64,000 bases of DNA, from contig NZ_JADQAQ010000001.1 in assembly GCF_022129445.1 (NCBI RefSeq), forward strand, positions 102,662 to 166,661, given 5' to 3'. The position numbers and the translations under genes are program-made. The notes under the pieces were generated by a model, which was given only the letters and a program-made list of their open reading frames with translations, was not told the DNA's origin and ran no database searches. Shown piece after piece: positions 3,307-60,031 of this stretch. How positions within the stretch are numbered: the stretch's first letter is position 1; the number at the start of each line of letters is the position of its first letter. The stretch is from Photobacterium sp. Ph5. Its GTDB lineage: Bacteria; Pseudomonadota; Gammaproteobacteria; Enterobacterales; Vibrionaceae.

Positions 3307-3551
3307 TTGCATTTTGAACTGAGCTTTAATATAAAACTCGCACGCTTTATTTTTAGCTCCGAAATAAAGGAGCGAAAATACACTTTAGTCACTAACAAGT
3401 AAGTTTCTGATAAAACTTTGACTTGGATTAAAGCTAAGACATTATGCTATTAGGTAGTTTATACTGCAGCAGCACAAGCAAGATAACTATATTATGCTTG
3501 TCATAAATAAAGTAATTATTAAATAAAATACTATATCTATCGGGGTGAATT
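3307..3551 (+). promoter_or_regulatory. ptsH upstream region and G-rich ribosome-binding site
   Basis: The gap before ptsH should carry the operon promoter. A TTGACT with possible -10 elements ATTATG or TATGCT lies near 3418-3446, not decisive. The Shine-Dalgarno region is unusually G-rich: GGGGTGAA at 3542-3549, two bases before the ATG. This octamer is the exact complement of a C-rich segment of the small RNA encoded at 26547-26935 (minus strand), which suggests antisense control of ptsH translation. Confidence 0.5.
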
Positions 3552-3839
3552 ATGTATCAGAAGCAAGTTGAAATTACAGCACCAAATGGTCTACACACTC
3601 GTCCAGCGGCTCAGTTCGTTAAAGAAGCAAAATCATTTGATGCAGACGTAACTGTAACTGCTAATGGCAAAAGCGCTAGCGCAAAAAGCCTATTCAAGCT
3701 TCAAACTCTTGGCCTGATCAAAGGTGCACAAATCACTATCGCAGGTGAAGGCGCTCAAGCTCAAGAAGCTGTTGATGCTCTAATTCAACTGAAAGAAGAT
3801 CACGACGGTTCACCAGTTGCAATGTTCCGCGAGATCTAA
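3552..3839 (+). CDS. ptsH: Phosphocarrier protein HPr, with an extended C-terminus
   Basis: HPr accepts phosphate from Enzyme I on a histidine and passes it to the sugar-specific EII proteins. The active-site segment [18 protein letters not shown] (His15) and the regulatory serine segment [17 protein letters not shown] (Ser46) are intact. The product is 95 residues, about ten more than the usual 85. After the last helix (AVDALIQLK) it continues [14 protein letters not shown] instead of ending in a short MAELE-type tail. No frame change within the gene explains this. It is the first gene of ptsH-ptsI-crr, 54 bases before ptsI. Confidence 0.95.
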
Positions 3840-3893
3840 GCTACGTTTATATACAAACGGGTTTTCAGTTTTTAGTTAATTTAAGGTAAGGCT

Positions 3894-5618
3894 ATGATTT
3901 CAGGTATCTTGGCATCTCCAGGTATTGCTTTTGCTAAAGCACTACTGCTGCAAGAAGAAGAGGTTGTTCTAAACAAAGCACCAATCTCTGCAGACCAAAT
4001 CGATCACGAAATTCAACGTTTCTTCGACGCACGAAAGAAATCGTCTGAGCAGCTAGAAGTAATCAAAGAAAAAGCACGTGTCACCTTTGGTGAAGAGAAA
4101 GAAGCGATCTTTGAAGGTCACATCATGTTGCTTGAAGATGAGGAGCTTGAAGAAGAAATCATAGCCCTTATTAAAGATAAAATGTCTGCTGACTTTGCAA
4201 TTTACTCTGTTATCGAAGAGCAAGCACAAACACTTGAGTCTTTAGATGATGAGTACTTAAAAGAACGTGCAAGTGATATCCGCGATATCGGTAGCCGTTT
4301 TGTGAAGAATGCATTAGGCATTAACGTAATCAATCTAAGTGCTATTAACGAAGAAGTTATCCTTGTTGCTAACGATCTTACACCGTCTGAAACAGCACAG
4401 ATTAATCTTGATTATGTTCGTGGTTTTATCACTGATATCGGTGGTCGCACATCACACACTTCAATCATGGCACGCTCGCTTGAGATTCCAGCGATTGTAG
4501 GTACAAACGATATCACATCAAAAGTTAAGTCTGGCGATATGCTAGTGCTTGATGCAATCAATAATCAGATTGTTATCAATCCAACGGATGATGAGTTAAA
4601 TAAATTTAAAGCTATCAGCGACGCGCATAAAGCAGAACAAGAAGAACTAGCTAAACTGAAAGATCTTCCTGCAATCACGCTTGATGGTAAGCAAGTAGAA
4701 GTTTGCGGTAACATCGGTACAGTGAAAGACTGTGACGGCGTAAACCGTAATGGTGGTGAAGGCGTAGGTCTATACCGTACTGAATTCTTGTTCATGGATC
4801 GCGATTCTCTACCGACAGAAGAAGAGCAATACCAAGCGTACAAAGAAGTTGCAGAAGCGATGCACGGTGAACCAGTGATTATCCGTACTATGGATATCGG
4901 TGGTGACAAAGATCTACCATACTTAGATCTACCAAAAGAAATGAACCCGTTCTTGGGTTGGCGTGCAATCCGTATCAGCCTTGACCGTCGTGAAATTTTA
5001 CGTGATCAGTTCCGTGCTATTCTTCGTGCATCTGCACACGGTAAGATCCGTATCATGTTCCCAATGATTATTTCGGTTGAAGAAGTACGTACACTTAAAG
5101 ATGCAATTGAAGAGTTTAAAGTTGAATTAACAGCTGAAGGTTTAGCTTTTGACGCTAACATCGAGATCGGTGTTATGGTTGAAACACCAGCGGCTGCCGC
5201 AATTGCACACCACCTAGCGAAAGAAGTTTCTTTCTTTAGTATTGGTACCAACGACTTAACCCAGTATACTCTAGCAGTTGACCGTGGTAATGAGCTAATC
5301 TCTCATCTTTACAACCCACTATCGCCTGCTGTACTTACTGTGATCAAGCAAGTTATTGATGCTTCTCACGTTGAAGGTAAGTGGACAGGTATGTGTGGTG
5401 AGCTTGCCGGCGACGAACGTGCTACTCTACTTCTTTTAGGTATGGGTCTTGACGAATTCAGCATGAGTGCGATTTCTATCCCTCGCATCAAGAAAGTTAT
5501 CCGTAACGCTAACTTTGCTGATGTTAAAGCAATGGCAGAGTATGCATTAACTCTACCGACAGCTGCTGAAATCGAAGAGCACGTAGAAAAATTCATCGCA
5601 GAAAAGACCATCTGCTAA
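3894..5618 (+). CDS. ptsI: PTS Enzyme I (phosphoenolpyruvate-protein phosphotransferase)
   Basis: Enzyme I starts the phosphotransferase relay by moving phosphate from PEP to HPr in the cytoplasm. The 574-residue product has the expected length. The phosphorylated histidine lies in [17 protein letters not shown], the PEP-binding barrel contains [14 protein letters not shown] and [10 protein letters not shown], and the catalytic cysteine is in [10 protein letters not shown]. It is preceded by TAAGGTAAGG. It is the middle gene of the pts operon, 40 bases ahead of crr. Confidence 0.97.
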
Positions 5619-5658
5619 TATAGCTGCAGATAATATAACAACGCTTAGGAGCATCGAT

Positions 5659-6168
5659 ATGGGTCTGTTTGACAAATTGAAGAAACTGGTTTCTGACGAC
5701 AGCAGTGAAGCTGGTGCAATTGAAATCATCGCACCACTTTCTGGCGAAATCGTTAACATCGAAGATGTGCCAGATGTAGTATTTGCTGAGAAAATTGTTG
5801 GTGATGGTATTGCTATCAAACCAGCGGGCAACAAAATGGTTGCACCAGTAAACGGTACTATTGGTAAGATCTTTGAAACTAACCACGCTTTCTCTATTGA
5901 GTCTGACGATGGCATCGAACTTTTCGTTCACTTCGGTATTGATACTGTTGAACTTAAAGGCGAAGGTTTTACTCGCATCGCTGAAGAAGGCCAAACTGTT
6001 AAAGTTGGCGATACTATCATCGAATTCGATCTTGCACTATTAGAAGAGAAAGCGAAGTCAACTCTGACTCCAGTTGTTATCTCTAACATGGATGAGATCA
6101 AAGAGCTAACTAAGCTTTCTGGCGCTGTAAACGTTGGTGAAACACCAGTATTACGCGTTAAAAAATAA
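5659..6168 (+). CDS. crr: PTS glucose-specific IIA component (EIIA-Glc)
   Basis: EIIA-Glc relays phosphate from HPr to glucose-family permeases and signals carbon status to adenylate cyclase and other targets. The 169-residue product matches the family. Both histidines of the active site are visible: [30 protein letters not shown]. The N-terminus carries the short amphipathic membrane-binding stretch [13 protein letters not shown]. The Shine-Dalgarno TTAGGAGC precedes the ATG. It is the last gene of ptsHI-crr and is followed by a strong terminator. Confidence 0.97.
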
Positions 6169-26546: not shown

Positions 26547-26577
26547 AAAAAAAACGCCGCTTCAAAACGAAGCGGCG
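26547..26577 (-). terminator. Strong terminator of the vcdRP transcript
   Basis: Minus strand: nine-pair stem CGCCGCTTC/GAAGCGGCG with a five-base loop and then eight T's. It isolates the RNA gene from the downstream permease gene. Confidence 0.92.
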
Positions 26578-26677
26578 GCGAATGTGGCAAATAATCGATC
26601 ACGATTATTTAGTATTCTCAAGTTAGGGGGTGAACAAACTGTTCAGTTAACTAGTCAACGACTAGATAACAAAAATC

Positions 26678-26767
26678 TTAGTAACCGAAGTAATTAGGAT
26701 AAGTAAAATTACCTGTGTATACAGATCGGTTATTCCAAAAATGTGTAATTGAATCAAAAATTTTCAT
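26678..26767 (-). CDS. vcdP: 29-residue small protein, VcdP-like
   Basis: The ORF begins MKIFDSITHFW and ends TGNFTYPNYFGY. Nine of 29 residues are aromatic (Phe, Tyr, Trp). AAGGTGA lies seven bases before the ATG, an excellent site, so translation is likely. No membrane helix or signal is apparent; a soluble, protein-binding peptide is plausible. Length and gene context match VcdP of V. cholerae, which is described as binding citrate synthase GltA. The ORF is framed by its own promoter and terminator and is not joined to any larger gene. The call rests on length, context and architecture, since I cannot align it here. Confidence 0.75.
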   Translation of the reverse strand: MKIFDSITHFWNNRSVYTGNFTYPNYFGY

Positions 26768-26935
26768 TTTAAATCACCTTATAAATAAGTAATCCAAATT
26801 AACTACATAACTATTATGTATTTAATCCTTGGAGGGTAAAGACCATCGTGGTCGCACTTATCTCGGTTCCATGGAGGCGATATCTCGGGTTCATCCTGAA
26901 CGTGTACAGTGTTTTCTCATAACCTTTATGAGATT
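26768..26935 (-). promoter_or_regulatory. Structured 5' leader of the vcdRP transcript
   Basis: Two perfect small hairpins are visible: GACCA-TCG-TGGTC at 26841-26853 and GTTCA-TCC-TGAAC at 26889-26901 (plus-strand letters). On the RNA the second loop shows GGA, as in CsrA-type sites. The octamer TATCTCGG occurs twice (26859-26866 and 26881-26888), each followed by a TTC-AT element. The function of this leader is not known to me. Confidence 0.5.
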
Positions 26936-26941
26936 GTTGAA

Positions 26942-26970
26942 ATCATAACCATTTCGTAATTAACTTTCAA
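26942..26970 (-). promoter_or_regulatory. Promoter of vcdRP
   Basis: TTGAAA (26965-26970) and TATGAT (26942-26947) with a 17-base spacer on the minus strand, four and five of six consensus bases. Transcription should start near 26935. Confidence 0.75.
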
Positions 26971-27324
26971 GAGTTTTTTTAACTTCGTCACACTTTTTAC
27001 AAAAAAACATTGTTAAATAACCCTTAGTGTAATTTTTTTTCAGTATTTGAACGGTAAATCATTTTTTAATGTTCATAATAAAACAAATGAATATCAGAAA
27101 TAATGACAAACTAAATCGTTTAACATATTAACTCCAAGCATAGTTAATACTTATTCATTATCGTATTCGTGGTTTAAGATTTTACTTTTTTCTCTACCTC
27201 CACCGAAGTCTGAATGATATGCTAAAAAAAATGCGATAGTGTAAATCGCTACTTATATATGTCATTTGGCGGCTAATAGCCTGACAAGTGCCACTGGACC
27301 AATATTATATAAAGGTAGGCTTCC
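26971..27324. other. Intergenic region between vcdRP and pepD
   Basis: About 350 AT-rich bases between divergent units. A lone CRP half-site (TGTGA, minus strand 26988-26992) lies upstream of the vcdRP promoter. AAAGGTAGG before 27325 is the pepD ribosome-binding site. I see no other ORF or RNA structure. Confidence 0.35.
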
Positions 27325-58927: not shown

Positions 58928-60031
58928 TTAATCACAAATATACTCAACAACTTCTAAACCAAAGCCAGACAATGAATGATAACGTTGTGTACTTGATGAC
59001 AATAAGCGCATTTTACTTACGCCTAAATCAGAAAGGATTTGTGAACCGACACCGACTTGTCGAGACGGATCTTTCTGTGTCACTTTCACTTTAGGCTGAC
59101 CCGATTCTTCTGCTGCAATATTTTTCACTTTATGAATAATAGACTCGGTTGATTCTTGCTTGCTTAGAATAACCAATACACCATTTTCTTCGCTAATGCG
59201 CTTCATCGCAGCAGGTAATGTCCACTGCGTCGCACCTGATTGCAGAATATCTTTAAACGTATCTTGCAAGTGAACACGCACAAGTGTTTCTTCACCTGGC
59301 TTGATATCACCTTTACGCAATGCGTAATGCACTTCGTTATCAATCTTGTCGCGATAAGTGATCATATCAAAGTCACCAAACTCAGTTGGTAAACGACACT
59401 CAGCAACACGCTCAATCGTAGTTTCGTGATTGTTACGATATTCAATCAAATCTGCAATCGTACCTAGCTTCAAGCCATGTTTTTCAGCAAATACTTCAAG
59501 CTGTGGGCGACGTGCCATCGTGCCATCTTCATTTAAGATCTCAACAATCACACTTGATGGCTCAAGGCCTGCCAAACGCGCAACATCACACCCCGCTTCA
59601 GTATGACCAGCACGGGTTAACACGCCACCTTCTTGTGCCATTAAAGGGAAAATATGCCCAGGCATAACAATATCAGCCGCTGTTGCACCAGCAGCAACAG
59701 CTGCTTGTACTGTACGAGAACGATCTGCAGCGGAAATACCCGTTGTTACGCCTTGTGCTGCCTCAATTGAAACAGTGAAAGGCGTGCCAAACTGTTCAGT
59801 ATTTTCTTGAACCATTAAAGGCAGGTTTAATTTTTGACAACGGGCTTTGCTCAATGTTAAACAAATCAGACCACGGCCATAGGTCGCCATAAAATTAATA
59901 GCTTCAGGGGTGATTTTTTCAGATGCAATAATCAGATCGCCTTCATTTTCACGATCTTCATCATCCATCAGAATAACCATTTTGCCCTGACGAATATCAT
60001 CAATTATTTCTTTTGCGCTGCTTAAAGCCAT
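58928..60031 (-). CDS. ribB: 3,4-dihydroxy-2-butanone-4-phosphate synthase fused to an inactive RibA-like domain (RibBX)
   Basis: The N-terminal half (about 1-205) is an intact Rib[63 protein letters not shown]. The C-terminal half follows the GTP cyclohydrolase II fold, but the zinc-ligand cysteines (the CDCG region) are absent: [15 protein letters not shown] stands where RibA has its zinc segment. This RibBX form is known in gammaproteobacteria with a separate ribA. So the protein supplies dihydroxybutanone phosphate only. 367 residues. Confidence 0.93.

Follow-up and report, generated by a model that had tools for sequence, protein, structure and literature searches.

The closest described system is VcdRP of V. 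cholerae (formerly Vcr082), a dual-function RNA reported by Venkat et al. in 2021 and encoded between vc2278 and vc2279 (PMC8672173). Its gene is 306 nt long; the ORF occupies 104-193, and a conserved stretch ending in four Cs follows at 223-232. The RNA binds Hfq, is processed by RNase E, carries a rho-independent terminator and pairs with the start sites of ptsG, nagE, treB and ptsHI (PMC8672173). The encoded peptide, VcdP, binds citrate synthase (GltA) and raises its activity, and replacement of its residues 15-18 (SVYT) with alanine abolishes GltA activation; the gene is repressed by CRP and has a CRP site upstream of the -35 box (PMC8672173). The SgrST system of Enterobacteriaceae also places a small ORF upstream of a distal pairing segment that represses PTS mRNAs (PMC8672173), but it differs from the gene studied here in its locus and in its regulator, SgrR. 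In the literature covered, VcdRP has been described only in Vibrio, and Photobacterium is not mentioned in the main text of the VcdRP paper (PMC8672173). What is new in this study is the presence of the gene across the Vibrionaceae and in Aeromonas.

The gene lies in a 64-kb stretch of Photobacterium sp. Ph5 DNA (NZ_JADQAQ010000001.1), hereafter the window, and all coordinates are positions within it. The minus strand at 26547-26992 carries, in order, a TGTGA half-site, a promoter, a leader, the ribosome-binding site AAGGTGAT (26773-26780), a 29-codon ORF, a C-run and a terminator, with pepD on the plus strand as one neighbour and an NCS2 permease gene and gpt downstream on the minus strand. 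A preliminary description of this DNA had placed the promoter, a leader of about 170 bases, an ORF of 29 codons behind an excellent ribosome-binding site, a C-rich segment and a terminator on this strand in a gap that looked empty of longer ORFs; all were found at those positions, and no longer convincing ORF was seen between pepD and the permease gene. The promoter, TTGAAA-N17-TATGAT (26942-26970, minus strand), has its -35 box at 26970-26965 and its -10 box at 26947-26942. A scan with the promoter pattern gave six matches against 5.9 expected, so that the match alone is at chance level; in the alignment, the -35 and -10 positions and the upstream TGTGA are kept across genera. The CRP-like site, TGTGA-N6-TAAAA (26977-26992, minus strand), has a perfect first and a degenerate second half-site, and the place of TGTGA upstream of the -35 box is conserved in the genera aligned, with a symmetric TGTGA-N6-TCAC(C/T) in Vibrio. 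Provided that transcription starts near 26935, a position that we infer, the predicted transcript would be about 388 nt long. The intrinsic terminator (26547-26577, minus strand) consists of a stem at 26577-26555 and a T-run to 26547; the terminator scan found three against 0.4 expected, which is above chance, and the folding of the RNA beats that of shuffled sequence (z = -3.55). The RNA is single copy in its own genome, and no family covering it was found in Rfam.

The arrangement follows that of V. cholerae. With the start of a V. cholerae-like locus (L053) placed 103 nt ahead of its ATG, its CCCC falls at 229-232 and its T-run ends near 306; these numbers are the published V. cholerae vcdRP coordinates, and the parts of the window gene come in the same order. 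Contigs of V. mimicus (L076) and V. metoecus (L081) match the pattern search as well. The ORF of the window (26678-26767, minus strand, stop TAA) encodes MKIFDSITHFWNNRSVYTGNFTYPNYFGY, a VcdP orthologue judging from peptide comparison and codon differences. The gene resembles V. cholerae VcdRP in its locus, in a 29-residue peptide with SVYT at 15-18, in a downstream C-run, in a terminator, in TGTGA upstream of the promoter and in ptsH as a predicted target, and differs from it in a leader of about 168 nt with extra GGA motifs, compared with 103 nt in V. cholerae, in a run of five Cs, in the degenerate second CRP half-site and in a peptide identity of 59% to the V. cholerae-like copy. We consider it highly probable, on comparison of sequences, that the window gene is the vcdRP orthologue and has its two known functions, peptide and base pairing. 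The gene belongs to a Photobacterium of the angustum/SKA34 group; among named strains and species, Photobacterium sp. GB-56, SKA34 and P. angustum carry close relatives of the window copy. The preliminary description, pointing to VcdRP, had taken the gene for its Photobacterium-type homologue. The homology was supported by the same locus, the intact SVYT, the order of parts, the C-run with its ptsH complement and the terminator, and the proposed comparison of ORF and RNA with V. cholerae, made here with L053, gave 17 of 29 residues in common and the same geometry. The notion of a special Photobacterium type had to be given up, since the gene is family-wide and occurs in Aeromonas.

At E<=10, the peptide search matched 286 of 330 Vibrionaceae genomes, spread over 10 of 13 genera; so permissive a cut-off also admits some matches due to chance. 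With a related member as query, 258 of the 330 genomes passed the stricter E<=0.01. Alignment of 23 diverse peptides reveals eight invariant residues (M1, W11, F21, Y23, P24, F27, G28 and Y29) and three nearly invariant ones (N12, Y17 and T18). The C-terminal half is the conserved part of the peptide and the N-terminal third is variable. The residues S15, V16, Y17 and T18 of the window peptide are identical to those of L053, and a named V. parahaemolyticus locus (L073) agrees. Four sister species with an identical peptide (L003-L006) each differ from the window at six or seven ORF positions, all of them silent third positions, and the median dN/dS is 0.16 for Photobacterium-type and 0.22 for Vibrio-type ORFs. 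By these codon comparisons the ORF is under purifying selection, and its recurrence in 286 of 330 family genomes together with the exclusively third-position differences among the four sister species argues that it is not a chance ORF. A Photobacterium clade (L118-L125, L130 and L131) has a peptide ending in YP.PYRY, not YP.SFGY, and thus alters otherwise invariant positions. Two Vibrio copies (L190 and L191) have divergent peptide ends (FAYTVYFGK and FAYNVYYGR) and still carry the leader and the C-run. The genome encodes one type I citrate synthase.

Outside the family, a peptide profile search over the order gave matches in a single genus of family f25 (20 genomes among the matches listed, with E mostly 1e-4 to 6e-3, the lowest being 1.5e-6) and in two f11-family genomes (E of 2.5e-12 and 6e-10). 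These matches are convincing despite weak scores, because the loci retrieved from the two groups had pepD and gpt on either side as well as the leader element described below. The f25 genus is Aeromonas: its locus aligns with an A. caviae chromosome at 87% identity across 99% of the query, and the same leader is found there. The order pepD-ORF-permease-gpt recurs in the genera sampled; in some of them an additional gap or gene intervenes. The remaining match outside the family (f8/g100), with an internal stop and no leader element, was taken as chance, and reading of the E. coli pepD-gpt gap, where the genes are divergent, revealed no similar ORF or leader element. No phage copies were found in GenBank or IMG/VR phage sequences, and the sole plasmid match comes from V. 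parahaemolyticus, in a record that is filed as a plasmid but looks like part of a chromosome. We found no paper naming VcdRP with Aeromonas in a search that missed most subscription journals. The comparisons thus show the vcdRP gene to be older and wider than published, present across the Vibrionaceae and also in Aeromonas. Additional copies occur as well, though rarely. Two Photobacterium genomes have a second vcdP copy away from pepD (L033:4041-4124, minus strand; L035:2679-2762, plus strand), each with promoter, leader and peptide kept and with the terminator directly after the ORF, without a C-run. The L035 paralogue adjoins ORFs that by eye resemble AbiEi/AbiEii. A Vibrio genome (G288, loci L092 and L132) carries a tandem vcdRP duplicate about 250 bp apart, in which the first copy lacks the C-run.

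CCCC lies between the stop codon and the terminator in 105 of the 110 distinct loci, that of the window included. The predicted VcdR base-pairing segment, TTCACCCCC (26626-26634, minus strand), contains the C-run at 26630-26626, and its sequence TTCACCCC is exactly complementary over 8 nt to GGGGTGAA at the ptsH ribosome site (3542-3549, plus strand), its proposed target; the ptsH start region reads GGGGTGAATTATG. The genes ptsH (3552-3839), ptsI (3894-5618) and crr (5659-6168) form an operon on the plus strand of the same window (3552-6168). A matching run as long as that of ptsH is found at 1.9% of 311 background start sites, and among 14 PTS genes, 4 have GGGG at the ribosome site, compared with 14 of 311 other genes (Fisher p = 0.005). 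One gene of nagE type (L135), which scores above the NCBIfam cut-off, has AGGGGGAACTAAGGGTG. Duplex energies of all PTS genes did not differ from background (p = 0.24); therefore, only a subset of PTS genes are plausible targets. No clear ptsG or treB orthologue above the cut-off was found in the genome, and the other PTS genes mostly have no G-run. The best predicted target operon is cysK-ptsH-ptsI-crr, about 20 kb from vcdRP in the same window.

Could this be an ordinary small-protein mRNA that is unrelated to VcdRP and resembles it by chance? The N-terminal third of the peptide differs from the Vibrio sequences and the leader exceeds that of V. cholerae by about 65 nt, as such an origin would allow, but locus, invariant residues, leader element, C-run and terminator are all held in common and in one order, and the peptide matches the profile at E = 4e-16, a value that is inflated because the window peptide is included in the profile. 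We regard this explanation as ruled out by synteny and alignment, its probability being very small. A narrower proposal accepts the orthology and holds that only the peptide function is kept here, the C-run being incidental. The paralogues L033 and L035, which keep leader and peptide without a C-run, give it some ground and suggest that the peptide and pairing functions can part. However, CCCC is kept in nearly all distinct loci, this one among them, and its exact 8-nt complement stands at the ptsH ribosome site, so we consider an incidental C-run improbable and retain a gene in which both functions would be preserved.

The leader is a further conserved part of this gene. It holds a near-invariant module, CGCCTCCANGGAACCGAG, whose element CTCCANGGAAC[CT]GAG is near-invariant across genera and exceeds the ORF DNA in conservation; the expectation in the preliminary description that the peptide would be the most conserved part of the RNA was therefore not upheld. 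In the window the element reads TCGCCTCCATGGAACCGAG (26862-26880, minus strand), and it was reported in all 110 distinct loci tabulated by a regular expression that was itself derived from an earlier leader alignment. The element occurs once in its own genome, with none elsewhere at three or fewer mismatches, and we therefore rejected the idea of a repeated regulon motif. Just upstream of the element lies a hairpin, GTTC-AGGAT-GAAC, with GGA in its loop (26889-26901, minus strand). Such GGA-loop hairpins are found in 66 of 67 distinct leaders versus 34% of GGA-holding shuffles, a count of leaders that are related to one another and hence not independent. The paired changes in the stems (GCUC/GAGC, GUUC/GAAC, GUUU/AAGC, GUUU/AAAC and GCAC/GUGC) are, as a comparative argument, stronger than this count; they were tabulated by script, because loop length varies and MAFFT misplaces the stems. 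GGA motifs average 2.4 per leader (minimum 2) versus 1.4 in shuffles, an excess that is partly due to selection of the leaders by an element holding one GGA, and the window leader has four. The third of these, CTCCAAGGAT (26825-26834, minus strand), is a degenerate second copy of the element, which is present in several Photobacterium in the clear form GCTCCAAGGAATTGAGC. In Aeromonas the leader has two tandem element copies with GGA hairpins, seen by eye, on both sides, one of these hairpins now lying downstream.

Element copies that come in differing numbers and orders around GGA loops point to a protein site, and the protein bound would most simply be CsrA, one of which is encoded in the genome. 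The leader resembles CsrA/RsmA-binding leaders and CsrB-type RNAs in having several GGA motifs, one of them in a covarying hairpin loop, but differs from them in that the motifs are few and the invariant flanks (CTCC...CCGAG) exceed what a CsrA site needs. The main text of the VcdRP paper has no mention of CsrA or of a leader function (PMC8672173), so that the CsrA part of our reading draws entirely on motif and covariation; VC2278 and VC2279 are not named in the main text of a V. cholerae CsrA paper (PMC7858070). The element might otherwise be a cis translation switch, in which ATCGCCT would base-pair with AGGTGAT, the ribosome site, and keep it covered until a signal arrives. The AUCGCCU/AGGUGAU pairing is possible over 7 bp, and two changes look compensatory: ATTGCC in the element (L016, L017, L025 and L026) goes with GGTAAT at the ribosome site, and TTCG (L039) with GGTGAA. 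Against these stand the ensemble foldings, in which the expected number of pairs reaches three in just 26% of the 110 loci and is about 0.6 for the window gene, the two element copies of Aeromonas, and the position of the invariant part, CCANGGAACCGAG, outside the pairing part. A helix between leader and ribosome site as the dominant structure was rejected, as ensemble folding gives it no support in most loci, and we hold a cis switch to be unlikely. For the GGA leader as a candidate CsrA landing site, through which the Csr system would act on the translation of vcdP or on the stability of the RNA, we judge the case to be nearly in balance.

A mechanism may be proposed from these parts. If the gene behaves as in V. 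cholerae, the transcript of about 390 nt would be made at low cAMP-CRP, and its ORF would yield the 29-residue peptide, which would bind and stimulate citrate synthase as its counterpart has been shown to do in that species. The 3' C-run, with Hfq, could pair with G-rich ribosome sites of PTS mRNAs, as the computed pairing predicts, with ptsHI and the nagE-type gene as putative first targets whose translation would be blocked. The leader, with its several GGA motifs, may serve as the point at which CsrA connects vcdP translation or RNA stability to Csr. More broadly, we tentatively propose, with slightly more doubt than belief, a third function of VcdRP: an ancient array of GGA modules, rearranged and duplicated between Vibrio, Photobacterium and Aeromonas, would bind CsrA and link GltA activation and PTS repression to Csr. 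By the same tentative reading, which falls a little short of an even balance, CsrA binding would either control vcdP translation or titrate CsrA.

The presence of the gene at the same locus across the Vibrionaceae and Aeromonas points to a widely kept dual-function RNA, and its wider spread offers more species for the study of a peptide that tunes citrate synthase. This distribution and the strongly conserved leader raise the finding above routine annotation. If the leader does bind CsrA, three routes of carbon control, namely CRP, Hfq-dependent pairing and CsrA, would meet on one small gene.

Some minor observations concern other records and another part of the window. Two PLSDB entries look chromosomal though filed as plasmids: NZ_CP099936.1, which comprises 32 kb of V. 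parahaemolyticus DNA and includes housekeeping genes, and NZ_AP026896.1, a 4.9-Mb Aeromonas caviae record. The window also contains an Rfam match to V_AS9 (Vibrio RNA AS9) at 59834-59934 on the plus strand, with 61.1 bits.
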